Assembly (NCBI RefSeq): GCF_024362205.1
Contig: NZ_CP101462.1
Span: forward strand, 2,824,001 to 2,888,000
Direction: 5' to 3'
Length of the DNA: 64,000 bases
Origin: Exiguobacterium aurantiacum
GTDB taxonomy: Bacteria; Bacillota; Bacilli; Exiguobacteriales; Exiguobacteriaceae
In this document: positions 27,512 through 44,005 of the stretch, one piece after another
How positions within the stretch are numbered: the first letter of the stretch is position 1
Layout: every line of letters starts with the position of its first letter
The notes under the pieces: model-generated
What the model was told of the DNA's origin: nothing
Seen by the model: only the letters and a program-made list of their open reading frames with translations
The model's database searches: none
Position numbers and translations under genes: made by a program

Positions 27512-27552
27512 AAAAAGAAGTGTCCGCCGAAAATGGCGGACACTTCTTTTAT
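27512..27552. terminator. Bidirectional terminator before the Moco operon end
   Basis: AAAAGAAGTGTCCGCC-gaaaat-GGCGGACACTTCTTTT, a 16-bp perfect stem between the deacetylase and moeB. Confidence 0.92.
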
Positions 27553-29251: not shown

Positions 29252-29703
29252 GTGTACGTCACTCCTTCCGGGCGTCCTGGGTGTTGTTCTTTTTGATCAC
29301 CCATCCATTTCGTGCCGTCGGTCCAATGCTCCCGTTTCCAAATCGGGACAATTTCTTTGATGCGTTCGATGGCGTAACGATTCGCCTCGTAGGCGTCGGC
29401 GCGATGGGAAGAACTCGTCGCGATGACGACCGCTTCTTCCATGATATCGAGTCGTCCAATCCGGTGATGGATCGCCGTCAACGCACCAGGCCAACGTTCC
29501 GCCACTTCTTTCGCGATTTGTTCGAGCATCTTCTCGGCCATCGGCACGTATGATTCATACTCCAAGAGTTCGGTCTGTTTGGAACCGGTCATCTCCCGCA
29601 CCGTCCCGATGAACAGCACGACCGCCCCGACGTTTCGATGCCGGACCGTTTCGTAAAGTGCCATCGGTTCGAGCGGATGTTCATTCACTTGATACCATTT
29701 CAT
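29248..29703 (-). CDS. moaE: Molybdopterin synthase catalytic subunit
   Basis: 151 residues. HRIGRLDIMEEAVVIATSSSHR and the catalytic-lysine region IVPIWKREHWTDG are present. It forms a heterotetramer with MoaD and inserts the dithiolene sulfurs. It overlaps mobB by 23 nt. Confidence 0.96.
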   Translation of the reverse strand: MKWYQVNEHPLEPMALYETVRHRNVGAVVLFIGTVREMTGSKQTELLEYESYVPMAEKMLEQIAKEVAERWPGALTAIHHRIGRLDIMEEAVVIATSSSHRADAYEANRYAIERIKEIVPIWKREHWTDGTKWMGDQKEQHPGRPEGVTYT

Positions 29704-30157
29704 CCTCCATCCACCTTTCCACTGAACGCATCAACCGGTCCTTGTCTGCCACGGAGTCTCCGCGTGCAATCACGTTCGTCACCTCGACCGGTTGTTCATG
29801 CCCGTCTCGCACGAGCACCACTTTCGGATAATCTTTCCGTTTATATCCTTCGATGAGCACGATGTCGACGTGCGCCTCGTACCAGTTGAGGAGCAACTCA
29901 AATGTATCGACCGCTTGCCACTCGATCAACGTCCCGTCTTCACCGATCACACTCGAAAGCACGGCACCAGCCAACGCGTGACGGTGCGAATCAGTCATCG
30001 GCAAGTCGAATGTTCCTCCGTGACCGTGGTGTTTGATGACACCGACACGGAGCCCCGTCGCCGACAAGCGTGATGTCAGTTCGGAAACGAACGATGTCTT
30101 GCCGCTATTTTGATAACCGACCACTTGTAAAATCAAAGCCGATCGATGATTCGACAT
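29681..30157 (-). CDS. mobB: Molybdopterin-guanine dinucleotide biosynthesis protein B
   Basis: 158 residues. The P-loop GYQNSGKTSF is near residue 13, and IVLIEGYKRKDYPKVVLVR is the conserved DxxxxEGYK-type motif. It binds GTP and assists MobA in making the bis-MGD cofactor needed by the nitrate reductase encoded about 8 kb away. It overlaps moeA by 25 nt. Confidence 0.93.
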   Translation of the reverse strand: MSNHRSALILQVVGYQNSGKTSFVSELTSRLSATGLRVGVIKHHGHGGTFDLPMTDSHRHALAGAVLSSVIGEDGTLIEWQAVDTFELLLNWYEAHVDIVLIEGYKRKDYPKVVLVRDGHEQPVEVTNVIARGDSVADKDRLMRSVERWMEDEMVSSE

Positions 30158-31371
30158 CGTACCGAGTCCCCTTTCTGAAACCCTCTCGTCCCGCCTGGCA
30201 GATGAATCAACGTGTTACACGTCGCGAGTGAAGAGACGATGCCCGATTTATCTTTGCCGCTCGGATGAACGACTGTCTGCCCAACTGAATCAAACGTCAC
30301 ATGTCCACGTACGAACCGGTCGAACGGATTCGGTTTCGGGAAATCGACACCGAGTTCCGCCTGAATGACAGGGCGTTCCGCTTGTCCGAACAACGTTTTC
30401 ATATACATGCCGACAAACAATTCCGTACCGACAAAACAGGCAGACGGATTACCAGATAATCCGAATAACAGCCGACCTTCGAGGTGCGCGACTGTCGTGA
30501 CGGACCCTGGCCGCATCCCGACTTTATTGAACAGTACTGTCGCTCCTAGCGCGTCATACACATCGGGCAAATAATCGAAATCGCCGACCGATACCCCGCC
30601 TGTCGTGACGATGGCGTCACTCGTCCGAAGTGCCTCGTCAATCGCCCGCTTTGTTGAAATAAAAGTATCTGGCAAGATGCCGCCATATGTCGCTGTGCCG
30701 CCGAGCTCCTCGATTTGTGCGAGAATCATATACGCATTCGAATTATAAATTTGACCGTCGGCTTTCTTCCGTCCCGGTTCGACGAGCTCGTCTCCGGTCG
30801 CGAACACGGTGATGTGCGGTTTCACGTACACGTCGACTTGATCGTAGCCGAACGTCGCGAGCAAGGCGATCACGCCTGGATTGATGCGGGTGCCTCGGTC
30901 AACGATATTCGTCCCCATCGCCACATCTTCCCCGCGATAAGAGATGTTGGCATCGCGGGCCGGTCGTTTGAACGTCACGACTTGCTCGTCTGCTTGCACG
31001 AGTTCGAGCATGACGACCGCATCGGCTCCGTCTGGAATTTTAGCTCCGGTCATGATGCGAATCGCCTCGCCGGCGCGGAGCGGTTCTCCGACGTGTCCAG
31101 CTCCCTGAACGTATTGAACGGGTAATGTCACCGGTTCATCGCGACTCGCAGACACCAAGTCCGCAGACCGGACGGCAAAGCCGTCATACGGCGACTTATT
31201 AAACGCCGGAACATCATGCGTCGCGACGAGATCCATCGCTAAAACCCGTCCATTCGCCCGATGCAACGGCACCGTTTCTGTTTCGGCCCGCCCTGTCGCT
31301 TCTTGGATGCGTGCGACCGCCTCATCGACGGCAAGCGGCTTGCGAAATAGGGTCGACACCTTCTCCATCAC
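30133..31371 (-). CDS. moeA: Molybdopterin molybdenumtransferase
   Basis: 412 residues, full length. VPAFNKSPYDGFAVR (N-terminal domain), RINPGVIALLATFGYDQVDVY, and TGGVSVGDFDYLPD are MoeA motifs. The enzyme inserts molybdate into adenylylated molybdopterin. Overlaps mobA by 4 nt. Confidence 0.97.
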   Translation of the reverse strand: MMEKVSTLFRKPLAVDEAVARIQEATGRAETETVPLHRANGRVLAMDLVATHDVPAFNKSPYDGFAVRSADLVSASRDEPVTLPVQYVQGAGHVGEPLRAGEAIRIMTGAKIPDGADAVVMLELVQADEQVVTFKRPARDANISYRGEDVAMGTNIVDRGTRINPGVIALLATFGYDQVDVYVKPHITVFATGDELVEPGRKKADGQIYNSNAYMILAQIEELGGTATYGGILPDTFISTKRAIDEALRTSDAIVTTGGVSVGDFDYLPDVYDALGATVLFNKVGMRPGSVTTVAHLEGRLLFGLSGNPSACFVGTELFVGMYMKTLFGQAERPVIQAELGVDFPKPNPFDRFVRGHVTFDSVGQTVVHPSGKDKSGIVSSLATCNTLIHLPGGTRGFQKGDSVRCRIIDRL

Positions 31372-31916
31372 TCCACTTCCTTCCCTAGCAGTGCTTCATA
31401 ATCATGTAGCGAATTCACATTTTTAAACCAATCCCGTTCTTCAAACGAGACGATTGTCGCCTCTGTCAAGTGAGGCATGACCGCCCGTTCACCTCGATGT
31501 AACGCTGCTTCGAATTGTGACAGTATCGAACGGGGGTATAAGGCGATGAGCGGATGGATCCGATCGTCTGCGTAGGCGACAACCGGCCGCTTCCCTCGTT
31601 CCGTCGCAAGCCGTTCGTAAACAGTCGGTGGCAACAAGGGCGTATCACACGCACAGACGGCATACCAATCACACGGGACGTGCCGCATGACGGTGATGAT
31701 GCCGGCGAGCGGCCCCATGCCGCACCATTCTCTGTCATCTTCAAGTTGATATGAGGTCATCGACTGTCCGGCCGGCACGACGCTCCATTGGGACGTCGTC
31801 GTGGTACCGAGCGTCTGTCGCGCCCGCTCTTCAAACGAGATGTCCTCATAACGGGCTTGCCATTTAGGGGACCCGAATCGGCGCGATTTCCCGCCCGCCA
31901 AGACGATGCCGATCAT
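31368..31916 (-). CDS. mobA: Molybdenum cofactor guanylyltransferase
   Basis: 182 residues. The nucleotide-binding start IGIVLAGGKSRRFGSPK is diagnostic. It attaches GMP to molybdopterin to make the MGD form. Overlaps moaB by 4 nt. Confidence 0.95.
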   Translation of the reverse strand: MIGIVLAGGKSRRFGSPKWQARYEDISFEERARQTLGTTTTSQWSVVPAGQSMTSYQLEDDREWCGMGPLAGIITVMRHVPCDWYAVCACDTPLLPPTVYERLATERGKRPVVAYADDRIHPLIALYPRSILSQFEAALHRGERAVMPHLTEATIVSFEERDWFKNVNSLHDYEALLGKEVE

Positions 31917-32425
31917 CGTGTCGCTTCCCAGACGATGTGGGAGAGCTCGGGAAGAATCAGACGGGTCATCGCCAAATCGACGGCGCCGCGCGATCCTGGC
32001 ATCGAGAAGATGATCGTATCTCCGATGCGTCCGGCGAGAGCCCGCGATAACATCGCCGCCGGGCCGATATCTTCCGTAAAACTGACGTAACGGAACAGTT
32101 CACCGAAGCCGACCATTTCCCGGTCGAGCAACGGCCGAATCGTCTCGATGGTGACGTCCCGTTTCGTGATTCCCGTCCCTCCGGTCGTCAAGATGACATC
32201 CATCTTCTCAGCGACCATTCGTCTGACGGCCGCCTCGATTTCAAGCGGTTCATCTTTCGTGATCTCACGGTATGTGACCGTGTGTGCTTCTTCTTTTAAC
32301 AGCGTGCAAATATGTTCGCCTGACACGTCCTTATCGAGTGTGCGTGTGTCTGAGATCGTTAAAATCGCGGCCCGGACACGCTTTGTGTTTTCATGTACGT
32401 GATTGTGTGCTTGCATCGTCTTCAC
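31913..32425 (-). CDS. moaB: MoaB/MogA molybdopterin adenylyltransferase-like protein
   Basis: 170 residues. VRAAILTISDTRTLDKDVSG and DVILTTGGTGITKRDVTIE are MoaB/MogA signatures. It is expected to adenylylate molybdopterin before molybdenum insertion. Overlaps moaA by 4 nt. Confidence 0.94.
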   Translation of the reverse strand: MKTMQAHNHVHENTKRVRAAILTISDTRTLDKDVSGEHICTLLKEEAHTVTYREITKDEPLEIEAAVRRMVAEKMDVILTTGGTGITKRDVTIETIRPLLDREMVGFGELFRYVSFTEDIGPAAMLSRALAGRIGDTIIFSMPGSRGAVDLAMTRLILPELSHIVWEATR

Positions 32426-33429
32426 CCTCCGATATAACTCATTTCAATCCGGTTTCGTGTCCGGTTCCCACTCCGCGACCGTTCTTCTGAATAGCGGTCG
32501 TCGCGTACTTCCCATACCATTTTCAGTGTCATGGCGATCAATTCGTCGCTCGCCCCGCTGCGGAGCAATTCGCGAATATCGGTCCCGTCTTCCGCGAACA
32601 GGCACGTATACCATTTGCCGTCACTCGATAGACGGCCTCGTGTACACGTCCCGCAGAACGGTTGGCTGACTGAAGAGATGAAGCCGACTTGCGCCCCATC
32701 CGTATAACGATAACGTTGCGCGACCTCTCCTAATGTTTCAGGTGCAAGCGGTTCAAGTAATCCATTTCGTTGTTTCAACACCTCAAGAATCGATTCAGAC
32801 GACACGACATGTTCGACGTTCCACTCATTCGCCGTGCCGACATCCATGAACTCGATATAACGGAGCGTGATATTCCGTTCTTTGAAATAAGCGGCCATCG
32901 GGGCAACTTCATGATCGTTCCATCCTTTTCGGACGACCATGTTCACTTTCACCTCAAGCCCTTGTCGCTTCGCTTCATCGATGCCTCGTAACACCGTCTC
33001 GGGCGACGTCCCGCGTCCGTTCATCATCCCGAACGTCTCGGCCGATAAAGCGTCTAGGCTGACGTTGACCCGGTCAAGCCCGGCTTGCTTTAACGCTTTC
33101 GCCATCCGTTCTAAATAGACGCCGTTCGTCGTCAACCCGATCGTCTCGATGGTAGTGACCGCACGCAGACGGCGAATCAACTCATCGAGATTCGGTCTAA
33201 GTAACGGTTCGCCCCCGGTCAGGCGCACTTTTTTTACGCCATGCGGGGCGATGATACGAACGAAGCGCTCAATCTCGTCAAACGATAGCAACTCGTCTCG
33301 CTTTAAAAACTGATGGTGACGAAACGCTTCTTCCGGCATACAGTACCGGCAACGAAAGTTGCATTTATCAATGACTGAGATGCGTAAGTCTTCCAACGGT
33401 CGTCTCCGTCGATCGGTCCATGGGGTCAT
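32422..33429 (-). CDS. moaA: GTP 3',8-cyclase
   Basis: 335 residues. The radical-SAM cluster motif CNFRCRYC (near 19-26), the second cluster CGTC-x13-C near the C-terminus, and the terminal Gly-Gly (SYIGG) needed for activity are all present. First gene of the Moco operon. narK lies 63 bp upstream on the same strand; a hairpin but no clear promoter was seen between them, so the operon may start at narK. Confidence 0.97.
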   Translation of the reverse strand: MTPWTDRRRRPLEDLRISVIDKCNFRCRYCMPEEAFRHHQFLKRDELLSFDEIERFVRIIAPHGVKKVRLTGGEPLLRPNLDELIRRLRAVTTIETIGLTTNGVYLERMAKALKQAGLDRVNVSLDALSAETFGMMNGRGTSPETVLRGIDEAKRQGLEVKVNMVVRKGWNDHEVAPMAAYFKERNITLRYIEFMDVGTANEWNVEHVVSSESILEVLKQRNGLLEPLAPETLGEVAQRYRYTDGAQVGFISSVSQPFCGTCTRGRLSSDGKWYTCLFAEDGTDIRELLRSGASDELIAMTLKMVWEVRDDRYSEERSRSGNRTRNRIEMSYIGG

Positions 33430-33492: not shown

Positions 33493-34809
33493 TCAGCGAA
33501 TCGGCTTTTCAGCACCGCTGCGCAAGTAATAATAAATTGTAGTGGCAATCGAAATCGCATAGAGCCCGAGCATGACGAACAACGCACCGTTGAACGAACC
33601 GACGAGTTCGAGCGACCAGCCGAACATCTTCGGAATGAAGAAGGCGCCGTAAGCGGCAAACGCTGCCGAGAACCCGACGACGGCCGGCGTCTTCGTCGCG
33701 ACGAACACGTGGGGAATCATCGCGAACGTGGCCCCGGAATTGAGTCCTGTCGCGATGAACAAGACGACGAATGAGATGAAAAACATCGTCAAGTTGCTGT
33801 TCGTGATGGCCATGATGACACTGATTGTACCGAGCGCCATGATTCCGAACACGATCAACGTCACTTTGGCCGCCCCAATCTTGTCACTGATCCAGCCTCC
33901 GAACGGGCGCGAAGAGGCGCCCAGGAATGCACCAAGGAATGCGAGCGCCATCAAGTCCGATTCAGGGAACTTCAACTTCAAGATCATCGGGAACGCTGCG
34001 GCATATCCGATGAAAGAACCGAACGCTGCCGTGTAGAGCAACGTTTGAATCCAAAAATGCTTGTCTTTAAACACGCTCGCCTGTTCACGAAGCGATTGAC
34101 GCGCGGTCGGTAAGTTATCCATGAACAAGTACGCGCATACCGTCAAGATGATGGTCGGCACGACCCAAAGGAGCGCGGCGTTTTGTAACCAAATCTCTTC
34201 TCCGGTCTCAGTCAAGAGGGCGTTCCCGCCGATGAACCCGAAAATACTTGTCGTAATGACGAGCGGTGTGATCAATTGGACGAGCGACACGCCTAAGTTC
34301 CCGATGCCTCCGTTAATACCGAGTGCCGTCCCTTTTTTCGCTTTCGGATAAAACGCCCCGATATTGGCGTTTGATGACGAGAAATTTCCGCCGCCGAGTC
34401 CGCAAAGCGCGGCCAAAATCATAAATACCCAATACGGTGTATTGACGTTTTGAACGGCGTAGGCGATGCCAAGGAGTGGCAATAACAAAATCGATGTCGA
34501 GAAAATCGTCCAGTTCCGACCGCCGAATATACTGTTCGCAAACGTATAGAAAAAGCGTAACGTCGCCCCGACGAGTCCAGGTAGGGCGGCCAAGGTGAAT
34601 AACTGGCCTTGCGTAAAGCTAAACCCGATCGAATTCAATTGGACGGCCGCGACCGACCACATTTGCCAGACGATGAATGCAAGCGTCAGTGCCGGGACCG
34701 AGACGCGCAAGTTCCGATTGGCGACTTGTTTTCCCGTCCCTTCCCAAAATCCCACATCCTCTGGCTTCCACTCGGCGAGTGCGTGTGACCCTTTGTCTAA
34801 TTGTTGCAT
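33493..34809 (-). CDS. narK: NarK nitrate/nitrite transporter
   Basis: 438 residues, 12 membrane spans. The nitrate signature ALCGLGGGNFSSSNANIGAF is near residue 140, and a second Gly-rich segment (LGINGGIGNLGVS) follows. It imports nitrate and exports nitrite across the cytoplasmic membrane, matching a reductase with a cytoplasmic active site. The ATG has GAGGAGG upstream. Its promoter has a class II FNR box. Confidence 0.95.
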   Translation of the reverse strand: MQQLDKGSHALAEWKPEDVGFWEGTGKQVANRNLRVSVPALTLAFIVWQMWSVAAVQLNSIGFSFTQGQLFTLAALPGLVGATLRFFYTFANSIFGGRNWTIFSTSILLLPLLGIAYAVQNVNTPYWVFMILAALCGLGGGNFSSSNANIGAFYPKAKKGTALGINGGIGNLGVSLVQLITPLVITTSIFGFIGGNALLTETGEEIWLQNAALLWVVPTIILTVCAYLFMDNLPTARQSLREQASVFKDKHFWIQTLLYTAAFGSFIGYAAAFPMILKLKFPESDLMALAFLGAFLGASSRPFGGWISDKIGAAKVTLIVFGIMALGTISVIMAITNSNLTMFFISFVVLFIATGLNSGATFAMIPHVFVATKTPAVVGFSAAFAAYGAFFIPKMFGWSLELVGSFNGALFVMLGLYAISIATTIYYYLRSGAEKPIR

Positions 34810-34852: not shown

Positions 34853-34895
34853 ATCCTATCGACCGCCCCCTAAAAAAAGTGTGCCTTCTTTCACA
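34853..34895 (-). promoter_or_regulatory. FNR-activated narK promoter
   Basis: Box TGTGC-CTTCTT-TCACA (34880-34895), 9 of 10 defined bases, is 21 bp from the -10 TAGGAT (34853-34858, minus strand), placing the box at -41.5. It extends to AAGTGTG / CACACTT as a longer palindrome. Confidence 0.8.
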
Positions 34896-34966: not shown

Positions 34967-35009
34967 TGTGACATTGAACACAGAAAAACCCTCCCCGATT
35001 CCTTACGAT
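34967..35009 (+). promoter_or_regulatory. FNR-activated promoter of the orphan gene
   Basis: Box TGTGA-CATTGA-ACACA (34967-34982), 9 of 10 bases, 21 bp before the -10 TACGAT (35004-35009). The start site would be near 35016, directly before the Shine-Dalgarno sequence, so the leader is only about 16 nt. Confidence 0.75.
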
Positions 35010-35031
35010 AAGGAATAGAGGAGGGATGAAT

Positions 35032-35544
35032 ATGTCACATCTTATTAAAATCCACTGTGCGCCCGAAGCTCGCTTGGCGCTACAACCATATTTCTTCAGT
35101 CAGGACGGGGCTCACGTGTTCCGTGTCTTCGGCGTCGCGATCGCCGAAGCTGCGTTCACAGAGACGGGGCTCGATATCTCGTTCCCACTTGAAAGTCCGC
35201 TAGAAGAGCTAGAAGCATTGCACAATTTGCTCGTTCGGATTGACAGCCACCATGGCGTGACGATTGATGACGCCCAGGCAGTCATCGGTTACTTAGGTGA
35301 CGGGACGACGGTCACCGTCTATCGCCATTTCAAACGATGGCTCGACTTCTTATCCGCTGCGCGTGTCCGCTCGATGGAAGGCGTCGTCGTCGAGGTGCGC
35401 GCCCATGGGGTCAAGCTAGCCGAAGGGGTACTCCGGTCTTACGAGTTGATGGAAGATGGCGAGTTTTATGTATCGGCCTGTACAATCGAGGCCGATGGGT
35501 TGGAGCATTTTGAAGGCGAACTGTCGCTTGCCGCCGTCATGTGA
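35032..35544 (+). CDS. Unknown protein under FNR control
   Basis: 170 residues, soluble, no signal peptide or membrane segment, and no family recognised. It has alternating strands and helices (SHLIKIHCAPEAR; FRVFGVAIAEAAF; VIGYLGDGTTVTVYRHFKRWLDFLSAARV), a single Cys near the start and one near the end. AGAGGAGGG precedes an ATG at 35026 with no gap and the ATG at 35032 with 6 nt, so 35032 is chosen. It sits between narK (divergent) and fnr (convergent, zero gap) and has a class II FNR promoter. A nitrate-respiration accessory or reductase maturation role is inferred from position only. Confidence 0.75.
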   Translation: MSHLIKIHCAPEARLALQPYFFSQDGAHVFRVFGVAIAEAAFTETGLDISFPLESPLEELEALHNLLVRIDSHHGVTIDDAQAVIGYLGDGTTVTVYRHFKRWLDFLSAARVRSMEGVVVEVRAHGVKLAEGVLRSYELMEDGEFYVSACTIEADGLEHFEGELSLAAVM

Positions 35545-36237
35545 TCAATCGATGACACAGACCGAGATCGGACAATCCTCACAATGGTTGAGCAGTTTCA
35601 ACCGGTCGAGATCATGGATAATGATTTGACGGGACGGGAGCGAAATGATCCCCTCTTGGGCGAGCTCGTTCAACATGCGGTTCACGCGTTCGCGCGACGT
35701 GCCGCAATAGTTGGCGAGCTCTTGGTTTTTCAGTTTCAAATCGATCAGAATTCCACCTTCGACTTCAACCCCATAGCTGTTCGCCATGCGAATGAGTGTC
35801 GAGTAGAGCGCTCCTTTTTTCCCGTTCAACACCAAGTCTCTAAATTTCGTATGCTGCTTCCGCATATGTTCATTGATCATAATCATGAACTCGCGGACGA
35901 ACTCCGGATTCGACGACAGAATCATCGTCTCAATTCGTTCGATCTTCACCGCATAGATTTCACTGTCTTCTAACGCTTTCGCGTTAAATAAATATTTTGG
36001 TTCGATTGCGAACAACGTCAACTCTCCGCAACAAGCCTCAGCGCTTAAACAACGTAACGTCAATTCTTTTCCATTTTCCGTCAATTTCGAAATTTGGATC
36101 AGTCCACTTTTCACAATATAAAATTCAGACGCGTCTTCTTGTTCCCGGAACAGAAAACCGCCTTTCGGGACATGAATGATGCGATGTGCCAATTTTTTTG
36201 TTTCATCGAGCACCATCGCTTTACTTGAATGTGCCAT
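35545..36237 (-). CDS. fnr: Fnr, oxygen-sensing Crp-family regulator
   Basis: 230 residues. N-terminal cyclic-nucleotide-like beta-roll (20-110), dimer helix, and helix-turn-helix NQELANYCGTSRERVNRMLNEL (171-192). The C-terminal CEDCPISVC (C219, C222, C227) is the iron-sulfur site used by Bacillus Fnr, with D135 in KFRDLVLNGKKG as probable fourth ligand. It activates nitrate respiration genes without oxygen. ATG 36237 is preferred to GTG 36243 by ribosome-site spacing (AAGGAAGG). The gene abuts the orphan gene tail to tail. No FNR box was found in its own promoter. Confidence 0.93.
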   Translation of the reverse strand: MAHSSKAMVLDETKKLAHRIIHVPKGGFLFREQEDASEFYIVKSGLIQISKLTENGKELTLRCLSAEACCGELTLFAIEPKYLFNAKALEDSEIYAVKIERIETMILSSNPEFVREFMIMINEHMRKQHTKFRDLVLNGKKGALYSTLIRMANSYGVEVEGGILIDLKLKNQELANYCGTSRERVNRMLNELAQEGIISLPSRQIIIHDLDRLKLLNHCEDCPISVCVID

Positions 36238-36301
36238 TTCCACCGACCTTCCTTAAAACACGTTGCGCCAAATCAAAGCTTGCCTTCATTCTAAACACAA
36301 A

Positions 36302-36347: not shown

Positions 36348-36551
36348 CTATTCTTTCGTACGATATTCAATTTTTTTCCAATATCGATATAACAAACCGA
36401 TCAATCCGACATTGATGATCGCGATGGCCATATACAGTTGCATCGACGCATGGTCATACACCATGTAGCTCTCAATCGTATATTGCAAGAGCACCATGTT
36501 CGTCGCGAGCAATACGACCAATCCGATTAAACTCCAACCGTTACGCCCCAT
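36348..36551 (-). CDS. Small two-span membrane protein of the nitrate reductase operon
   Basis: 67 residues with two membrane helices (WSLIGLVVLLATNMVLLQYTI and LYMAIAIINVGLIGLLYRYW) and a basic tail. It begins 11 bp inside the end of the Rieske gene, so translation is coupled. No family was recognised. As the last gene of the operon it may be a membrane subunit, assembly factor or anchor for the Rieske protein. Confidence 0.7.
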   Translation of the reverse strand: MGRNGWSLIGLVVLLATNMVLLQYTIESYMVYDHASMQLYMAIAIINVGLIGLLYRYWKKIEYRTKE

Positions 36552-37047
36552 GATGAATCTCTCTTCCGACCGCAAAGATTTTCCCGTTCTCGATCTCGAG
36601 CAAGATTTTAGGCAGTTCCCGCTGCGGCGGTCCCGACTGAGGTTGGCCGTCGACACTGAAATAACCGCGGTGGCACGGACAGAGAAGGACATCTTCTTCC
36701 TCCACATAAAACACCGGACACTGCAAATGGGTGCATTTGTTGTTATAGGCGACGAACTCACCCGTCTTTAAATGAACGAGCAATGATGGTTCCGTACCCG
36801 GATATTCGAATTCGAGTGATTTCCCCCGTTCGAGCGCCTCGACCGTCGTGATGAACTGACGGTCGGTTCGCGGCTCGCTGCGGACGAAGGCCGCGATGTT
36901 GAACGGGACCGTCGCTAGACCGAGCGCGATGCCGGCGCCAAACGTCGATTTGATGAACGCCCGGCGGTTCAGTTTCACGTCATCGGCGCGGCTCAAATTG
37001 TCAACGAGTGAGGATAGACGCTCCCGATCTTTTGATTCATTTGACAT
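36541..37047 (-). CDS. Rieske iron-sulfur protein with N-terminal anchor
   Basis: 168 residues. NRRAFIKSTFGAGIALGLATVPFN (about 27-50) resembles a twin-arginine-type anchor, though only RR-x-F is present. The Rieske cluster site is CTHLQCPV (C-T-H) and CPCHRGYFSVDG (C-x2-H), with the QSGPPQRELP proline loop. It resembles QcrA of bc-type complexes but no cytochrome b6 or c genes accompany it. In this operon it probably carries electrons from quinol towards the nitrate reductase. It starts 20 bp after the ferredoxin gene. Confidence 0.9.
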   Translation of the reverse strand: MSNESKDRERLSSLVDNLSRADDVKLNRRAFIKSTFGAGIALGLATVPFNIAAFVRSEPRTDRQFITTVEALERGKSLEFEYPGTEPSLLVHLKTGEFVAYNNKCTHLQCPVFYVEEEDVLLCPCHRGYFSVDGQPQSGPPQRELPKILLEIENGKIFAVGREIHHGA

Positions 37048-37067
37048 AAGTCATCTTCCTTTCCATC

Positions 37068-37610
37068 TCAATCGGAATAGACGCCAAAGAATTCAGGGAC
37101 GTAATTCCACTTATCATCTTGCGAAGGTTTTTTTCCTTCGATCATGTTCATTTGGACACGCTGACGACGAAGTTGCATCATCTCATCATGGTCGATGAAA
37201 CGAATCGCATCCGACGGACATACTGACGCACACATCGGCGCGATATCATGTTTAGAACGGTCGTAACACATGTCGCACTTATACATCTTGTTCTTCTCAA
37301 AGTCGAACTTCGGAATCCCGAACGGACAAGCGAACGTACAGTTGCGGCAGCCGATACATTTCTCTTCCGAAGCCGATAAGACGACGCCTTCTGGCGTGAT
37401 TTGAATCGCGTTGGCCGGGCAAACTTGAGCACATGCCGGGTTTTTACATTGCATACAGATCATCGGGAACGTCTGACGGTTCTCCGAGAAGTCGATGTAG
37501 TCGACGTAGTTGCGCTCGAGCCCTTCGTGGTCCCCGCATTCGCGGCAAGCCGCTTGGCAGGCCCGACAGCCGATACAGCGTTCAAATTCTAAATACATGA
37601 CCTTATTCAT
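37068..37610 (-). CDS. Four-cluster ferredoxin subunit (DmsB/NrfC type)
   Basis: 180 residues with sixteen cluster-type cysteines in four groups: CIGCRACQAAC, CMQCKNPACAQVC, CIGCRNCTFAC and CDMCYDRS ... CASVC. This is the electron-transfer subunit typical of membrane-bound molybdoenzymes and should hold four [4Fe-4S] clusters. No signal peptide. It overlaps the catalytic gene by 4 nt (ATGA). Confidence 0.93.
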   Translation of the reverse strand: MNKVMYLEFERCIGCRACQAACRECGDHEGLERNYVDYIDFSENRQTFPMICMQCKNPACAQVCPANAIQITPEGVVLSASEEKCIGCRNCTFACPFGIPKFDFEKNKMYKCDMCYDRSKHDIAPMCASVCPSDAIRFIDHDEMMQLRRQRVQMNMIEGKKPSQDDKWNYVPEFFGVYSD

Positions 37611-39853
37611 TTCGTCTGAACCTCCTCATCCATGACGTGACAGCTCGTCGCAATCGCATGGTCCGCCATGAACGGCACGCTCGAACCGAGCGGGACCGTC
37701 AACGGATTAATGTGTAACGGGGTGTTGGTCGGCAACTTCTTCATTTGAACCGCACATACCTTGAACTCCGGCATGCGTGACATCGGATCGAGGCACGGGT
37801 TCGTCAATTGGTTGATGGCTAGCTCTTTGCCCCAATGATAAGGAACGAAGACCGTGTCTTTTCGAATCGCCTTCGTCAAACGAGCTTCGACGACCATCGC
37901 TCCGCGGCGTGTGCGGAGTTCGACTTTGTCGCCCGTTTGAAGACCATAGCTTGATGCGAGCTCAGGATGAATCTCAACGAACGGCAGTTTCGACATCGTG
38001 CTCAAGAAATCGACGCGACGCGTCTGGTTGCCCGAGAGGTAATGGAAGACGACCCGACCTGTCGTGAGCGTGACCGGATACTCTTCATTCGCATATTCAC
38101 CGGCCGGCCGATATGTAACGACGGGCAGGTTCGCTTTTCCGCTTGCCGTCCCAAACCGTTCTTTGAACATCGTCGGTGTGCCGGGGTGATCTTCGGACGG
38201 ACATGGCCAAAAGACGCCATACTCGTCATCGATTCGTTCCCACGTGATTCCTGAGTAGTCAGCCGCTCCGCCTTTCGTCGCGATGCGGAATTCTTCCCAA
38301 ATGTCACGCGCCGTGTCATACGGGAAGTATTGTCCGCGTCCCATCCGCTCAGCGATCCGCTTCATGATTTCCCAGTCCGGGAGCGACTCCCCGAGCGGTT
38401 CGCGCACTTTCCGGATCCGAATGACACGTCCTTCTAAGTTTGTCGTCGTCCCTTCGTCCTCGGCCCACGAACAGGCCGGTAAGACGACGTCAGCGAACTC
38501 ACAAGATTCCGACATGAAGAAGTCACTGACGACGAAGAAATCGAGTTTGTTGAAACTGTCCCACACGTACGGAAGGTTCGGTGCCGAGACGGCCGGGTTC
38601 GAGCACATGAGGTGCATCGCCCGAATCGTCCCCGCTTGGATTTCATCGAACATCTCGAACGCGGAGACGCCTGGTTTTGGCATCTCCGAAGGGTCGATGC
38701 CCCAGACGCCGCTCACATATTCGACGGCTTTCGGGTCAGTTAACTTCCGATAACCTGGTAACAAGTCGGCTTTTTGTCCGTGTTCCCGTCCACCTTGGCC
38801 ATTCCCTTGCCCCGTCATCGTGGCGACGCCCGAGGCGAACTTCCCGATCATACCGCGCAGGAGTGCCATCGATGTGTAGAGCGAGACGTTGTCGACGCCT
38901 TTTGATTGTTGCTCGACGCCGCGGGCGAACAACATGACCGACCGTGGGCTCTTCCCGTAAATATGACCTGCCTTCTCAAGCTTTTCGATAGCGACCCCGG
39001 TCACGTCACTCGTCCGTTCGAGCGTCCAGTCACGGACCGACGCTTTCAACTCTTCGTAATTATCGCAACGCTCATCCACATACGCTTGATCGACGTAATC
39101 GTGTTCAATCAAGAAATTGAGCAGTCCCATCGCTAATGCCGCATCCGTCCCTGGCTTCAAATCAAGATGGACGTCCGCAACGCGCGCCATCGGAATCTCA
39201 CGCGGGTCGGCGACGATGATTTTCGCGCCTTTATCTTTTGCCTTCCAAATATGTTGCGTCGTCGTCGGGTGACATTCGGCGATGTTCGAGCCAGCGACAA
39301 AAAATGTGTCGACGTGCTCGAATTCCGTCCACGGGAGCGTCGCCCCGCGGTCAATCCCGAGTGTCTTCAAGAAACCGCCGGCAGCTGAGGACATACAGAA
39401 CCGACCGTTATAGTCGATGAATCGTGTCCCGAGTGCGACGCGGGCATACTTCCCGACGAGATAACATTTCTCATTCGTCATCGAGACGCCACCGAAGACG
39501 GACACCGCGTCTTTCCCGTGTTCCCGTTGAATCCGTTTGAAGTTCGCTTCGATCACGTCGAGCGCTTCTTCCCATGTCGCTTTTTCAAACTTGCCGTTCC
39601 GCTTGATGAGCGGGGTCATGATGCGATCCGGATGTTCGATTGTTTGATAGGCCGTGACGCCTTTCGGACAAAGTTTTCCTTTATTGACCGGGAAATCGTA
39701 GCGTGGCTCGACGCCTTTGACGGCCCCTGTCTTCTCATCGACCCGGATGTGCATGCCACACTGCATGCCGCAGTAGCAACAATGGGTCGTGATCAGTTTC
39801 TCACCCGGTTTGATTAAGTTCTGTACTTCTGGCGACGTTAAAAAGTCACTCAT
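37607..39853 (-). CDS. NapA/Nas-type nitrate reductase catalytic subunit, cytoplasmic
   Basis: 748 residues from ATG 39853 (GGAGGGG 6 nt upstream; 59 upstream residues of the open frame rejected). N-terminal cluster motif C25-x2-C28-x3-C32 with C62, and YNGRFCMSSA, where C153 is the expected molybdenum ligand. NarG has Asp there, and formate dehydrogenases have Cys or Sec followed by His. The C-terminal Molydop_binding domain (TTGRVVFHYLSGNQTRRV, FVPYHWG) is complete. It reduces nitrate to nitrite using bis-MGD. It has no Tat signal, so it should be cytoplasmic. Context (quinol-linked subunits, FNR, narK) suggests respiration; assimilation is the alternative. Confidence 0.88.
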   Translation of the reverse strand: MSDFLTSPEVQNLIKPGEKLITTHCCYCGMQCGMHIRVDEKTGAVKGVEPRYDFPVNKGKLCPKGVTAYQTIEHPDRIMTPLIKRNGKFEKATWEEALDVIEANFKRIQREHGKDAVSVFGGVSMTNEKCYLVGKYARVALGTRFIDYNGRFCMSSAAGGFLKTLGIDRGATLPWTEFEHVDTFFVAGSNIAECHPTTTQHIWKAKDKGAKIIVADPREIPMARVADVHLDLKPGTDAALAMGLLNFLIEHDYVDQAYVDERCDNYEELKASVRDWTLERTSDVTGVAIEKLEKAGHIYGKSPRSVMLFARGVEQQSKGVDNVSLYTSMALLRGMIGKFASGVATMTGQGNGQGGREHGQKADLLPGYRKLTDPKAVEYVSGVWGIDPSEMPKPGVSAFEMFDEIQAGTIRAMHLMCSNPAVSAPNLPYVWDSFNKLDFFVVSDFFMSESCEFADVVLPACSWAEDEGTTTNLEGRVIRIRKVREPLGESLPDWEIMKRIAERMGRGQYFPYDTARDIWEEFRIATKGGAADYSGITWERIDDEYGVFWPCPSEDHPGTPTMFKERFGTASGKANLPVVTYRPAGEYANEEYPVTLTTGRVVFHYLSGNQTRRVDFLSTMSKLPFVEIHPELASSYGLQTGDKVELRTRRGAMVVEARLTKAIRKDTVFVPYHWGKELAINQLTNPCLDPMSRMPEFKVCAVQMKKLPTNTPLHINPLTVPLGSSVPFMADHAIATSCHVMDEEVQTK

Positions 39854-40133
39854 CGTCTTCCCCTCCATAGAACGTTTCCGCTCTTCGTTTTGAAAATCCA
39901 CTGACGTGATAGCCGTTGATCGTTTGAAGCGGATAATGCATCCCGTCACTTCCAGGTCGTCCGAGCGCCGAATCGAGCCGGGCTCGACGACGACAGGCGT
40001 GACAGAGATCCTGGACCGTATGCGCCGCATCTACTTTCACGAGCTGCTCCGACCCTTCGAGCAATTGCTTCACTTGTTCGATTTCTTCAAGTGTCCCGGT
40101 CGGTTCGCCACACTTAACGCACAGGTGTCTCAT
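39846..40133 (-). CDS. Small CxxC protein, paralogue of the cytochrome C-terminal domain
   Basis: 95 residues. CVKC and CHACRR are separated by exactly 35 residues, followed by a tail with NGYHVSGFSKR. The same layout (CAGC, 35 residues, CQPCRR, then TGMSMPGFGR) forms the C-terminal domain of the cytochrome b-like protein encoded just upstream, so the two are related by duplication. It probably binds zinc or an iron centre. Start 40133 has GGTGAGG 6 nt upstream. It overlaps both neighbours, by 20 and 8 bp. Confidence 0.75.
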   Translation of the reverse strand: MRHLCVKCGEPTGTLEEIEQVKQLLEGSEQLVKVDAAHTVQDLCHACRRRARLDSALGRPGSDGMHYPLQTINGYHVSGFSKRRAETFYGGEDDE

Positions 40134-41241
40134 CTTTAGCCTCACCTTTCGTCTCCTTCGGCCGGCCGAATCCTGGCATCGACATGCCGGTGTTCGTATC
40201 GACCGGGTGCGTCGGCAACTGTCCGTTCATCAAGTTCAACTGCATCTTCACACGCATCGAACGTCGACACGGTTGGCAGTAATCCGACAACTGGGTCCCG
40301 TCACTGAGTCCGAGCTGGATCGTCTGTGCCTGTAAAATCGCTTGGACGTCCTCGACTTGATTGTCGGTCGCATAACGTGTGCCACACCCAGCGCAGACAC
40401 GTGTCTCGTCCGCCTCGACTTCCCGGTAATTCATCGGCACACTGGCTGCCATCGGCCGGACCGGCAAGTGGAACAGTTTACCGAACGGGAAGTAGCATAA
40501 AAAGATGATAACGGTCAATTGATGGAACAAGGCGAGCTCATGATGGATGAAACCGCCGAAGAACACGTACGACACGGTCAACAAGAGACCCGATACAGTG
40601 ACGATGAGCAACATAAGGAGCGGTAAAATATCAAACTCGAACCGCTGGGTCACTTTCACGTCTTGGTCGTTGATCCGGCGATAGAGCGCCATGAGCACGC
40701 CGACGAGCAACATGAGCGCGGTGATGTTCAAGCCGTTGTAGACCATTTCGGCGAACAACCCGTGCGCGGCCATCTTAATCGTCGGAATATTAAAGACGAT
40801 GATTTGATACTTCTCGATATCGATTAAATCAAACCGCATCCACTGGAACGTCAACCCGAACGTGATGGCGAACGACCCGAGGCATCCCCAGGCGATCAAC
40901 ATGTGTTGGGTCCAGCGATACCAGCCTCGCTCCCAAATGAACTTCTGCAAGACGATGTTGTTGACGGTCGTCGCGGCGACGGCTTTGCCGGCCCGTTTCT
41001 TTTCTGCCTTCATCTGTTTGAGGCTTCGCTTCAACACTTGTGAGGTGGCCGGCCGTGCAAAAAATAACGTCAAGCGAACGACCATCCCGATCATGCAGAC
41101 GACAGCACCAATGTAATAGCCAAACAACGCCATGTCGACATGTTCAAATCTCCCTGAGGCGACCCACGTCGAGAGCACCAACATGGTAAACCCTACGAAC
41201 GACCACTTTGCGGCGGTCGAATAAAAATAACGATCGGACAT
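40114..41241 (-). CDS. Membrane cytochrome b-like subunit with C-terminal CxxC domain
   Basis: 375 residues. Six or more membrane helices in residues 10-270, with several conserved-looking histidines (TQHMLIAWG, MAAHGLFAEM, GGFIHHELALFHQLTV, GKLFHLP), as in NarI/HdrE/DsrM-type quinol-oxidising cytochromes b. A cytoplasmic C-terminal domain carries CAGC and CQPCRR. It should pass electrons from menaquinol to the ferredoxin and catalytic subunits. First gene of the reductase operon, with an FNR promoter. Haem binding is inferred. Confidence 0.8.
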   Translation of the reverse strand: MSDRYFYSTAAKWSFVGFTMLVLSTWVASGRFEHVDMALFGYYIGAVVCMIGMVVRLTLFFARPATSQVLKRSLKQMKAEKKRAGKAVAATTVNNIVLQKFIWERGWYRWTQHMLIAWGCLGSFAITFGLTFQWMRFDLIDIEKYQIIVFNIPTIKMAAHGLFAEMVYNGLNITALMLLVGVLMALYRRINDQDVKVTQRFEFDILPLLMLLIVTVSGLLLTVSYVFFGGFIHHELALFHQLTVIIFLCYFPFGKLFHLPVRPMAASVPMNYREVEADETRVCAGCGTRYATDNQVEDVQAILQAQTIQLGLSDGTQLSDYCQPCRRSMRVKMQLNLMNGQLPTHPVDTNTGMSMPGFGRPKETKGEAKDETPVR

Positions 41242-41281: not shown

Positions 41282-41324
41282 ATCATAAAGATGACATCTC
41301 GACTTAACTGTTACTTTTTTCACA
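41282..41324 (-). promoter_or_regulatory. FNR-activated promoter of the nitrate reductase operon
   Basis: Box TGTTA-CTTTTT-TCACA (41309-41324), 9 of 10 bases, 21 bp from the -10 TATGAT (41282-41287, minus strand). Transcription would start near 41275, about 34 nt before the first start codon. Confidence 0.8.
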
Positions 41325-41375: not shown

Positions 41376-41747
41376 ATGAAGTCATCGCTTAAAATCATGT
41401 TATTCCTCACCATCGCGGCCATGCTCGTCGTCTTTTCCATCGGTTTCGTCTTCGCCAACCGGGCGACGACCGAACCGGATGTCGAGGGGTATGTGATTGA
41501 AATAAATGAATCTGACCGCACCGCTCTCGTGATCAGCGACATCACCGCAGAAGAGGCGACACTTTCGCCTGACGAACTGTTCGCTCAAAGCGCACCGGAA
41601 AACGTGAGCTGGTTCAAGTTTCAAGTGAAAGCCACGTTCGAGCAAATCGCTGTCGGGGACCACGTCCATATTTGGAAAAAGACCGGTCCGAGTATCTTAA
41701 ATACACCGAACCGGTCTTATGTGAAAAAAGTCGACGTGATTGACTAA
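41376..41747 (+). CDS. DUF3221-like membrane-anchored protein
   Basis: 123 residues. One N-terminal membrane segment (about 6-27), then an OB-like small domain: GYVIEINESDRTALVISDI and FEQIAVGDHVHIWKK, typical of DUF3221/YobA-like proteins of unknown function. It converges on modB with a 4-bp overlap. SD AAGGAGG. Family assignment is moderate. Confidence 0.65.
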   Translation: MKSSLKIMLFLTIAAMLVVFSIGFVFANRATTEPDVEGYVIEINESDRTALVISDITAEEATLSPDELFAQSAPENVSWFKFQVKATFEQIAVGDHVHIWKKTGPSILNTPNRSYVKKVDVID

Positions 41748-42385
41748 TATTGACGCTTGCCGTAACGTTCACTCAGCCAGAGGACTAAAAACGCCAAACC
41801 AACCAGCCATCCGCTCCAGACGAGCGCCTGGGTCATATCGCCGTTGATCGTCGCCATATAAATCGCTGTGGCGAGCGTCATCGTCTCGCCCGGGATGTTT
41901 CCCGCAATCATCATCGTGATCCCGAACTCGCCGATCGACCGGGCGAAACCGAGGACGAAACCGCTCGTCAACGCAGGTAACAGCAGCGGAATCGTCACGT
42001 AGGTGAACAGTTGACGCTCTGACCCGCCGAGCACGCGTCCGGCCTCATACCATTCCGCATCGAGTTGTTTGAGCCCGAGCCGAATCGTTTGATAGATGAG
42101 CGGGAATGCGGCCAAGGCGGACGCGATGACGTTCGCCTGTTTTGTGAACAAGATGGAGACGGGTAAGAACCCGCCAATCCCGTTGTTCCCGAGGACGATC
42201 AAGGCGTACAACCCGATGACCGTCGGCGGCAAGATGAGCGGCAACAAAAACATCGTCTCGAGCAGCCGTTTGCCTTTGAACTGACGGTGATGCATGAAAT
42301 AAGCTGCGCCGAAGGCGAGGACGAAGGCGCTCATCGTCGCCATCATCCCGACTTCGAACGTGAGCTGAAGTGGAGATTGCGTCAT
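41744..42385 (-). CDS. modB: Molybdate ABC transporter permease
   Basis: 213 residues, five or six membrane spans. The EAA loop EAGRVLGGSERQLFTYVTIPLLLP and GFARSIGEFGITMMIAGNIPGET are ModB signatures. It supplies molybdate for the cofactor. Overlaps modA by 4 nt. No modC ATPase gene follows in this window. Confidence 0.94.
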   Translation of the reverse strand: MTQSPLQLTFEVGMMATMSAFVLAFGAAYFMHHRQFKGKRLLETMFLLPLILPPTVIGLYALIVLGNNGIGGFLPVSILFTKQANVIASALAAFPLIYQTIRLGLKQLDAEWYEAGRVLGGSERQLFTYVTIPLLLPALTSGFVLGFARSIGEFGITMMIAGNIPGETMTLATAIYMATINGDMTQALVWSGWLVGLAFLVLWLSERYGKRQY

Positions 42386-43116
42386 TTGGAAAATCCTTTC
42401 GCCAAAAAGTGAGTTTGGATGTCGTCGTCAAACAAACGTGCGTAGACATCGCGGACGTATGATTCATGCGTCAACCGGACTGCCGGATACGAGATCGTGC
42501 CCGTCGCTTCAAGTGGAATCGACTGAATCGCCTCGACGCCTGTCGTCAATTCTGTCTTATAGACGAATCCCGCATTGGCATCGCCTTGTTCGATGAGCGT
42601 CAGCACTTGTCTCACGTTTTGGGCGAACATGATTCGAGGTTCCGCCTGTCCCCACGCCCCTTCCACTTCTAATGCCGCTTTCGCGTAACGACCGGCCGGG
42701 ACGTTCACCGGGTCGCCGATGACGATGCGAGCGCACGTATTTAAGTCGTCCCACGTCTCCGCGCACGGTTTCCCTTTCGGTGTCACGAGCCACAACTCGT
42801 TATGCAAGAACGCATCCCGCTCTAGAATCGGGATTTGTAATCGATTGACATCGTCATCGCTCGCGGCTAAAAAGATATCCGCTGGAGAGCCGTGATTGAT
42901 TTGTGCTCGTAAGGCGCCGCTCCCGTTCGTCACGACCCGAACGTCGACCCCCTCAAGTTCCGCTTCCAGTTGTCGCTCGACCTCTTCCAAGGCCGGTCCT
43001 AAACTTGCCGCTGCTAAGATGGTCACGGTTTCCTCCGAATCCGGACTTGACCACACTTGACTTAGCAATAAGACGACCGCCACCCCGATGATGACCCCAC
43101 TCACCCGTTTCATCAT
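42382..43116 (-). CDS. modA: Molybdate-binding protein
   Basis: 244 residues. An N-terminal membrane segment (MKRVSGVIIGVAVVLLLSQVW) lacks a lipobox Cys, so it acts as signal anchor or peptide. VTILAAASLGPALEEV, NGSGALRAQI, GSPADIFLAAS and GDPVNVPAGRYA are the molybdate/tungstate ligand segments. SD AAGGAGTG. First gene of modAB. Confidence 0.94.
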   Translation of the reverse strand: MMKRVSGVIIGVAVVLLLSQVWSSPDSEETVTILAAASLGPALEEVERQLEAELEGVDVRVVTNGSGALRAQINHGSPADIFLAASDDDVNRLQIPILERDAFLHNELWLVTPKGKPCAETWDDLNTCARIVIGDPVNVPAGRYAKAALEVEGAWGQAEPRIMFAQNVRQVLTLIEQGDANAGFVYKTELTTGVEAIQSIPLEATGTISYPAVRLTHESYVRDVYARLFDDDIQTHFLAKGFSK

Positions 43117-43220: not shown

Positions 43221-43928
43221 TTAAGCGAACGTGCGCGCCCGCGGGAATAGAATATTGTTTTCGAGATGAATATGTTCGAACGTATCCGACTCGAGCGCTT
43301 CTAACCGTTGATAGACAAGACGATATGTTCCACACGCACCTTCAGGCGGTGTATAGTCGTTCGTGATCTGACGCAATTCTTTTAAAATGTCACCGGCGGC
43401 CGCGTGTTCTGACTCGAGCGATGCCAATATGTCGTCGATCTCCCGTGTCGTTTCAGCTGTCGGTGCCGTCTCATGACGAAGCAACGTCGGGAAGTCTTCC
43501 GTCTCTTCTTTGACGATATGTTGTTCGAGCTCCACCTTCAATTGATTGAACAGTTGATGGATGCGCCCGAGGTGTGGATGGTTTTGTCCGTGGACCCGGA
43601 ATACTTTTGTCACATATGGTGTGAGCTGTGGCAATTCATCCGTCAAAAATTGGTGATGCTTATAAATGATATGCTCAATCAATTCTGAGGAAGACGCGGC
43701 ATCCCAATCGATGCTCTTCTCGTTCATCTCTTGCTTGCGTTGATAGAGCGCATTGACTTCTTCTAAAACGTCTTCGGTCGACCGTTTCGATTTGTCTGTC
43801 GCTTCAGAAAGGGGCCGATTGCCGCCGCAACAAAAATCGATTCGGTTCCGTTTGAAGATATCTGCCGCTTGCGGGCACTGTTTGACGATTTCAGAAACGT
43901 GCGTATCGCCCGTGAATGTCTGTGTCAT
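43221..43928 (-). CDS. ric: Iron-sulfur cluster repair protein (Ric/ScdA/YtfE)
   Basis: 235 residues. The N-terminal ScdA_N domain has IDFCCGGNRPLSEA, and the C-terminal hemerythrin-like domain supplies the di-iron ligands (IIYKHHQFL, HGQNHPHLGRIHQL, EQHIVKEE, EHAAAGDI, EHIHLENNILFP). It repairs iron-sulfur clusters after nitric oxide or peroxide damage, which fits a nitrate-reducing cell. It has a perfect FNR box upstream. Confidence 0.96.
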   Translation of the reverse strand: MTQTFTGDTHVSEIVKQCPQAADIFKRNRIDFCCGGNRPLSEATDKSKRSTEDVLEEVNALYQRKQEMNEKSIDWDAASSSELIEHIIYKHHQFLTDELPQLTPYVTKVFRVHGQNHPHLGRIHQLFNQLKVELEQHIVKEETEDFPTLLRHETAPTAETTREIDDILASLESEHAAAGDILKELRQITNDYTPPEGACGTYRLVYQRLEALESDTFEHIHLENNILFPRARTFA

Positions 43929-43962: not shown

Positions 43963-44005
43963 AGCGTAGCAAGAGTTTGACGACAAAAATGTGAAATACG
44001 TCACA
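43963..44005 (-). promoter_or_regulatory. FNR-activated ric promoter
   Basis: Box TGTGA-AATACG-TCACA (43990-44005), a perfect consensus inside AAATGTGA / TCACATTT, lies 21 bp from a weak -10 TACGCT (43963-43968). Confidence 0.75.

Follow-up and report, generated by a model that had tools for sequence, protein, structure and literature searches.

A 2020 treatment of the DMSO reductase family describes, in its accessible text, the clade of Nas, Nap, Aio and FDH enzymes as never occurring with canonical four-cluster or membrane-anchor subunits, and NasA and NasC as serving assimilation only (PMC7331816). In Bacillus, nasC has been reported beside genes for a Rieske protein and a hybrid-cluster protein, with no cytochrome b mentioned in the portion available (PMC3475470), and the haloarchaeal nar operon, according to the available part of its description, encodes a Rieske protein (narB) and a 486-aa cytochrome b (narC) with narGH, the NarG site lying outside (PMC2483277). 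Here we analyze an operon in a 64,000-nt stretch of the Exiguobacterium aurantiacum genome (3.15 Mb, two contigs), in which a NasC-like molybdenum subunit is encoded with a four-cluster ferredoxin, a Rieske protein and a cytochrome b, and which probably specifies a membrane-bound menaquinol:nitrate reductase with a cytoplasmic active site and an architecture separate from Nar, Nap and Nas. All coordinates are positions in this stretch, hereafter the window.

In Exiguobacterium itself, a "nasC cluster" was found in half of the Salar de Huasco strains, apparently assimilatory and with a role that "remains unknown"; it comprises nasC, a 2Fe-2S protein first mislabelled aioB, FdnH, an uncharacterised MFS transporter, NarK, fnr and molybdopterin genes, and is evidently the present locus (PMC7374977, accessible excerpts, which name no cytochrome b and no relatives outside the genus). 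The available passages of two further papers list NasA in 4 of 18 Exiguobacterium strains with no nitrite-to-ammonia enzymes (PMC13233415) and describe one strain said to lack nitrate and nitrite reduction genes (PMC8457463). No work describing the system as respiratory appeared among the titles and abstract openings listed in our literature search, whose coverage left subscription journals mostly outside.

A NasC-like subunit encoded with predicted membrane partners

The operon lies on the minus strand, running from 41241 down to 36348. An earlier note on this DNA, made from the sequence alone, had placed six genes here, and their location and family scans agree with it; the ferredoxin, Rieske and cytochrome b-like proteins that it named match Fer4_11, PF00355 and, weakly, Nitrate_red_gam, and its CxxC protein and small membrane peptide are present without an accepted family match. 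In order of transcription, the genes are:

40114-41241, minus strand: cytB, 375 aa, predicted NarI-like cytochrome b with a C-terminal cytoplasmic CxxC...CxxC domain (structure and profile comparisons)
39846-40145, minus strand: CxxC...CxxC protein, 99 aa, paralogue of the CytB C-terminal domain (match to the CytB query)
37607-39853, minus strand: NasC-like molybdenum catalytic subunit, 748 aa (NF047855, molybdenum site, tree)
37068-37610, minus strand: fd4, ferredoxin subunit with four [4Fe-4S] motifs, 180 aa (Fer4_11, E 4.7e-20)
36541-37047, minus strand: rieske, Rieske 2Fe-2S protein with a Tat-type signal-anchor, 168 aa (PF00355, E 1.9e-11)
36348-36551, minus strand: small membrane peptide, 67 aa, with two hydrophobic stretches by eye (no accepted Pfam match)

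The catalytic subunit is the only PF00384 protein in the host genome, PF00384 being the molybdoenzyme family searched. Its open reading frame (37607-40030, 807 aa) is too long, and translation probably begins at the ATG at 39853, which is preceded by GGAGGGG and overlaps the stop of the CxxC gene, and the catalytic proteins of relatives begin at the matching residue. An in-frame stop in nas of G006 was considered as a gene break and rejected, since it lies only upstream of this likely start. The N-terminus, MSDFLTSPEVQ, has no RR motif and, by eye, no Tat signal.

Comparison with curated families gave NasC as the best match (NF047855, 876.3 bits) and the formate dehydrogenase alpha subunit as the second (TIGR01591, 654.7 bits), with neither cut-off reached (1100 and 666.25, respectively). 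The NAPA model scored 290.6 bits (cut-off 930.55) and the NarG model 36.5 bits (cut-off 1084.15), placing the subunit outside the NarG family. A quinone-linked formate dehydrogenase would account for the score just under the TIGR01591 cut-off and for the best PDB sequence matches, which are formate dehydrogenases; a fold search of the predicted catalytic model puts NapA on top, with NapA and formate dehydrogenases matching about equally (the predicted models are of middling confidence, with pLDDT 75 for CytB and 72 for the second model).

The molybdenum site decides between NasC and formate dehydrogenase, because Cys-Met stands in every row of the clade and Cys-His or Cys-Gln in the formate dehydrogenase rows. 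In the alignment of our 48-row tree, DYNGR[FY]CM is present in 21/21 clade rows (DYNGRFCM in the window protein), and Cys-Met recurs in the group of 14 NasC rows and in two NapA rows. Formate dehydrogenase rows read xCxRxCH or CQ, with a DxC motif, and aligned PDB formate dehydrogenases agree. Cys-Thr stands in the row of a Streptomyces nitrate reductase. A haloarchaeal row labelled Natrinema_Nas (annotated only as a molybdopterin-dependent oxidoreductase) has Cys-His and groups with the formate dehydrogenases.

The maximum-likelihood tree has 48 rows, 690 columns and long reference branches; NarG, AioA, cyanobacterial NarB, the two G502 loci, whose nas is broken, and G462, where a stop interrupts the gene, are outside it. 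The 21 catalytic rows linked to CytB form one clade (98/93), joined by a Deinococcus plasmid protein (99/98). Its sister group consists of 14 NasC rows from Bacilli (99/96; 100/99 for all of these together), and formate dehydrogenases and NapA branch elsewhere. The contrast row G458 fell among the formate dehydrogenases and proved to be one. On the molybdenum site and the tree we rejected a formate dehydrogenase identity, which the transporter and FNR context described below also disfavours, making it extremely improbable overall. The earlier note had called the subunit NapA/Nas-type and proposed a phylogeny against NarG, NapA, NasA/NarB and formate dehydrogenases: the Cys-Met site and the missing Tat signal bear out part of that description, and kinship with NapA gives way to a sister relationship with NasC in a tree that holds NapA, NasC and formate dehydrogenases.

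Conservation and partner exchange across the class

To place the operon we surveyed 398 genomes of 145 genera from the class of Exiguobacterium, Bacilli. The cytochrome b profile matches 38/398 genomes in 14/145 genera. A catalytic query from G413, with at most two candidates scored per genome and those at E<=1e-150 kept, matches 87 genomes, at >=60% identity in 38 and at <=50% in all others; the 38 are exactly the genomes with the cytochrome b. The cytB and catalytic genes adjoin in carriers, with the CxxC gene between them in Exiguobacterium, and the order CytB-Nas-Fd4-Rieske is kept in 20/20 fetched loci from 19 genomes (genes labelled by best blastp match at E<=1e-3; two of the loci, both from G502, have a broken nas, and L097 has an ATPase gene before rieske). 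Operon conservation, a check that the earlier note had suggested, is confirmed, and on sequence grounds the system is real, conserved and often misannotated. Both G502 operon copies (L109 and L110) have the catalytic gene split over several ORFs.

Within the genus the system is present in 7/19 Exiguobacterium genomes; the window cytB matches five Exiguobacterium records at 94-97% identity and, at 95%, one 5-kb contig labelled Bacillus sp. P14.5. Outside the class, the cytochrome b is found on four Deinococcus plasmids, where its annotation reads MFS transporter, and two of them encode, in order, the cytochrome b, the molybdenum enzyme, a 4Fe-4S protein, a Rieske protein, DUF6755 and then a transporter, one of these transporters being annotated as nitrate/nitrite. 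Deinococcus CytB homologues lie at L137:4790-5902 and L149:6905-8017, and the L137 protein has the same C-terminal CxxC domain.

For contrast we hand-picked 16 loci from the catalytic matches at <=50% identity. CytB and Rieske had no match in these 16 loci, and Fd4 matched in 2/16, to long NarH-like ORFs kilobases away. Conversely, a NasB/NirB-type flavoprotein ORF is found in 14/16 contrast loci and in 0/20 system loci. Five carriers (G444, G577, G587, G597, G732) have, besides the system, a second catalytic match (46-49%) that has a PF01077 gene no more than about 3 kb away.

NarG is encoded in 2/38 carriers and 112/360 non-carriers (Fisher p 0.0003, uncorrected for kinship); the class total is 114/398 genomes at E<=1e-200, and the 112/360 presumes that both surveys drew the same 398 genomes. 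Only G444 and G548 among the carriers have NarG over its cut-off. Most sampled carriers in two genera (g285, g307) lack NarG, and G467 and G726, from these same genera, have NarG and no CytB match, as if one had replaced the other.

No other nitrate or nitrite reductase found in the host genome

A narGHI operon elsewhere in the genome, which the earlier note had named as evidence that would overturn its reading, was searched for and not found: PF00384 and NarG searches of the host genome returned nothing besides the catalytic subunit itself, and that explanation was rejected. Host-genome searches for PF01077 nitrite/sulfite reductases and for NrfA found none, which agrees with the note's finding no narG and no sirohaem nitrite reductase; the NarG, PF01077 and NrfA models each gave a positive result in E. 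coli, and the first two also in B. subtilis. NapB and NapD had no match among the operon proteins scanned, with no genome-wide search made for NapB, and NarJ-type proteins had none among ten locus proteins scanned.

PF01077 is missing from 7/7 Exiguobacterium carriers and from G548 and present in 30/38 carriers overall; NrfA is found in 0/7 Exiguobacterium carriers and 3/38 overall. Because no PF01077 gene was found in the seven, nitrite assimilation is unlikely there, and because neither PF01077 nor NrfA was found, nitrite is probably exported. Nitrate assimilation in Exiguobacterium and ammonification by NrfA were rejected on these grounds.

More generally, the operon could encode an assimilatory NasC that takes electrons from ferredoxin and feeds nitrogen metabolism, as the best family match, the sister clade and the names nasC or NasA given in Exiguobacterium papers (PMC7374977 and PMC13233415, accessible text) suggest. 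The NasC score is below its cut-off, however, a NasB/NirB-type partner is absent from all 20 loci, neither an exported Rieske protein nor a membrane-bound cytochrome b would be needed, FNR boxes stand upstream of cytB, and five genomes already hold a separate NasC near a PF01077 gene. Together with the PF01077 pattern, which is itself divided (absent from the Exiguobacterium carriers and G548, present in 30/38), this makes an assimilatory role very unlikely.

Predicted electron-transfer subunits

The fold of CytB, as far as a predicted model and weak sequence matches can tell, is NarI-like. Structural comparison gave NarI as the best match (VIA-align Z 11.1-11.4 over 171-186 residues; the Z of 11.4 over 175-184 residues, at 20% identity); EtfD reached Z 11.3 and the next chain 7.8, so the fold alone does not separate NarI from EtfD. 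A profile comparison with two NarI proteins (hhalign E 7.7e-5, probability 62) aligns two histidines of NarI with H240 and H258, and PF02665 (Nitrate_red_gam) is the sole recurrent Pfam match, in 18/20 CytB members at E<=0.05 (window protein E 2.5e-4, below the gathering score). Each score alone is modest, and taken together they suggest that CytB is a NarI-type cytochrome b. H113, H240 and H258 are kept in 21/21 rows; H34, present in 18/21, might serve as a replacement ligand for the outer heme. The CytB query matches the 99-aa CxxC protein at 23% identity (E 6.7e-5), and the match of the CxxC protein to the C-terminal end of the L023 CytB is at 35%.

Fd4 has 17 cysteines, all kept in 23/23 rows, and four cluster motifs, enough for four [4Fe-4S] clusters; its score against the narH model is 52.4 bits (cut-off 524). 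The Rieske protein has both Cys motifs, including the disulfide cysteines, in 23/23 rows, as in bc-type Rieske proteins, and its closest solved chains are bc-type, with arsenite oxidase chains matching too. An RRxF signal-anchor is present in 21/23 rows (the L110 row stops short of it, and L103 lacks it), and TatC is encoded in the host genome and in 18/19 Exiguobacterium genomes. Because of this Tat-type signal-anchor the Rieske cluster should lie outside the membrane, probably exported, and because it has no signal the catalytic subunit should lie inside. No cytochrome c family match was found among the operon proteins scanned. A homologue of the small peptide (E<=0.01) follows rieske in 12/22 loci, taking the place of the DUF6755 protein found on two Deinococcus plasmids; eight Bacilli rows of the peptide gave no accepted Pfam match.

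Probable FNR-type control

Regulatory features of the operon and its flank are:

41309-41324, minus strand: FNR-type box TGTGA-N6-TAACA upstream of cytB (box scan)
35545-36243, minus strand: fnr, Crp/FNR regulator with a C-terminal CxxCxxxxC (PF13545 and PF00027; C-terminus read)
34880-34895, no strand assigned: FNR-type box with one mismatch between narK and the gene for a 172-aa protein (box scan), with a second at 34967-34982

The C-terminal CxxCxxxxC is as in Bacillus FNR. In 25/28 loci the 300 bp before cytB contain a box that departs from TGTGA-N6-TCACA at one position or none, against 0.28 expected from shuffles that keep single-base composition (seven of the 28 loci are Exiguobacterium near-copies and two more are of one genus; L109 was left out). 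The three loci without a box belong to G444, G548 and a Deinococcus plasmid. Control by FNR, as the earlier note had proposed, is supported by the boxes and the adjacent regulator gene. Elsewhere in the window, perfect TGTGA-N6-TCACA boxes occur at 1715-1730 and 43990-44005.

Neighbouring genes and rival substrates

Downstream of the operon, following fnr, and upstream of cytB the window holds:

35026-35544, plus strand: 172-aa protein of an unnamed family (no NCBIfam or accepted Pfam match), reverse-oriented
33493-34809, minus strand: narK, NarK/NarU-type nitrate/nitrite transporter (NF011608 405 bits, TIGR00886 290 bits, both below cut-off)
32422-33429, minus strand: MoaA (TIGR02666 over cut-off)
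31913-32425, minus strand: MoaB (domain TIGR00177 over cut-off; moaB model below)
31368-31916, minus strand: MobA (best match TIGR02665, below cut-off)
30133-31371, minus strand: MoeA (best match MoeA NF007960, below cut-off)
29681-30157, minus strand: MobB (TIGR00176 over cut-off)
29248-29703, minus strand: MoaE (molybdopterin synthase models as best matches, below cut-off)
29024-29251, minus strand: MoaD (TIGR01682, below cut-off)
28556-29020, minus strand: MoaC (TIGR00581 over cut-off)
27549-28559, minus strand: MoeB/ThiF-type adenylyltransferase (NF009123, below cut-off)
41376-41747, plus strand: DUF3221 protein, divergent to cytB (Pfam scan)
41744-42385, minus strand: ModB molybdate permease (TIGR02141 over cut-off)
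42382-43116, minus strand: ModA molybdate-binding protein (TIGR01256 over cut-off)
43221-43928, minus strand: RIC/ScdA di-iron Fe-S repair protein (TIGR03652 over cut-off; perfect FNR box at 43990-44005)

By these matches, several of them best matches below a curated cut-off, the block is a molybdenum cofactor pathway with molybdate uptake. The DUF3221 gene is divergent to cytB in the 7 Exiguobacterium loci compared and, at the cut-offs applied, nothing matching it turned up in loci fetched from other genera. Homologues of the 172-aa protein (26-36% identity) occur in 9/20 fetched loci and also in L023; it is possibly a dedicated assembly or regulatory factor, and it and the CxxC protein may, at a guess, act in assembly or docking. 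A P-loop ATPase that is Mrp/ApbC-like by eye lies at L023:15601-16344 and in or near the operon in L097, L098, L100, L101 and L109, and is perhaps an Fe-S cluster carrier.

The enzyme might reduce another oxyanion or N-oxide (such as selenate, chlorate or arsenate) or act as an oxidase (of arsenite or nitrite): AioA adjoins NasC/NasA in a published tree (PMC7331816, accessible text), and the Rieske protein scores against the model for the small subunit of arsenite oxidase (E 6e-10, under its cut-off) and was once annotated aioB (PMC7374977, excerpts). Against this, the nitrate-type Cys-Met is kept, whereas AioA has no protein ligand to molybdenum (PMC7331816, same text), NarK-like MFS genes occur in 16/20 loci (blastp E<=1e-3, though identity is only 23-28% in 12 of them), nasC of strain SH1S21 did not respond to arsenic (PMC7374977, excerpts), and the FNR boxes speak for a reductase that works under anoxic conditions. 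We consider a different substrate, or an oxidase role, quite unlikely.

The RIC gene, which has a separate FNR box, is consistent with nitrosative stress and could be read as a sign that nitrate is reduced without energy conservation, as an electron sink for redox balance or in nitric-oxide handling, in keeping with the patchy distribution in the genus (7/19) and an uncertain outer heme ligand in CytB. CytB resembles the membrane-crossing NarI, however, and with a cytoplasmic site quinol oxidation at the outer face would be proton-motive, leaving the sink only a small chance.

A probable quinol:nitrate reductase and its mechanism

A respiratory quinol:nitrate reductase is the reading we favour. 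In its favour are the single PF00384 enzyme beside genes for molybdenum cofactor synthesis and molybdate uptake, the nitrate-type molybdenum site, the identical set of 38 genomes for CytB and the close catalytic subunit, NarI as best structural match of CytB, the missing PF01077 in the Exiguobacterium carriers, the scarcity of NarG among carriers and the Deinococcus gene order; the separate enzyme of this kind that the earlier note had suggested is supported by the survey, the tree, the exchange of partners, the FNR boxes and the lack of another nitrate reductase in the genome. From these we infer nitrate as substrate, quinol as donor, complex formation and an energy yield. Without oxygen, FNR would switch the operon on, and NarK would carry nitrate in and nitrite out. 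Menaquinol would be oxidised by CytB on the outer side of the membrane, next to the exported Rieske protein, and electrons would cross the membrane by way of a b heme pair near the cytoplasm (H113-H258) and pass through the four clusters of Fd4 and the catalytic [4Fe-4S] cluster to molybdenum with its Cys ligand, where the NasC-like subunit would reduce nitrate to nitrite in the cytoplasm. Protons would be released outside and taken up inside, so that energy would be conserved as in NarGHI; the Rieske protein would either share the outer quinol site or act as a side acceptor.

Several points weigh against this reading. The closest solved structures by sequence are formate dehydrogenases, and since five genomes carry the system and a separate NasC, the nitrate substrate is argued from homology. 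In Foldseek, NarI is the best row for the CytB model at an E of only 0.03, and the structural tool warns that helical models may reach Z 11 by a common arrangement. Where NarI has its fourth heme ligand, as judged by the distance from H113, 21/21 CytB rows have S or A, for which reason the outer heme is uncertain. It is hard to see where an outward Rieske protein would fit into a simple NarI-like route. G444 and G548, both without an FNR box upstream of cytB, are the carriers with NarG, and the system may have another role where Nar is present. Our literature search found no activity, growth or purification data on the system, and the accessible parts of PMC8502702, PMC8779447 and PMC7260758 give no nitrate phenotype of Exiguobacterium.

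The Rieske protein would find a use in a Q-cycle nitrate reductase built as one complex, with menaquinol oxidised at an outer site between Rieske and CytB, where the two electrons would part, the first to the higher-potential Rieske cluster and the second to the low-potential b heme; with both put to use, more charge would be moved per nitrate than in NarGHI. This variant is an outside possibility; if true, it would tie the Nas lineage to the Rieske-bearing arsenite-oxidase lineage.

If the quinol:nitrate reductase respires, bacteria now annotated as nitrate assimilators, or with an "MFS transporter" in place of the cytochrome b, respire nitrate and would escape surveys that look for narG and napA. 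The system also allows a direct test of how a soluble enzyme of nutrition turned into a respiratory one, or the reverse.

Comparison with known nitrate reductases

The arrangement resembles NarGHI in its predicted cytoplasmic active site, an Fe-S subunit with four cluster motifs and a putatively NarI-like cytochrome b. NarG has Asp as its molybdenum ligand, and here a NasC-type subunit has Cys in its place; a Rieske protein, a CxxC protein and a small peptide are added, CytB lacks one NarI heme ligand, and no NarJ-type match was found among the ten locus proteins. With the NasC/NasBC enzymes of Bacilli it shares a sister catalytic subunit, the same molybdenum site and the lack of an export signal, whereas the flavoprotein NasB/NirB there (14/16 loci) is replaced here by cytochrome b, Fd4 and Rieske (20/20). 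Periplasmic NapA has the same Cys-Met site and tops the fold search; unlike it, the present subunit has no Tat signal, and no NapB or NapD match was found among the operon proteins scanned. In AioAB arsenite oxidase, molybdenum has no protein ligand, in contrast to the Cys here. The haloarchaeal nar operon likewise encodes a Rieske protein and a cytochrome b with a nitrate reductase and its Fe-S subunit, but the catalytic subunit there is NarG with an outside site, whereas here it is NasC-type without a Tat signal and is paired with a putatively NarI-like CytB. Contrary to the statement in the accessible text of PMC7331816, the present clade of the Nas lineage is encoded with four-cluster and membrane-anchor subunits.

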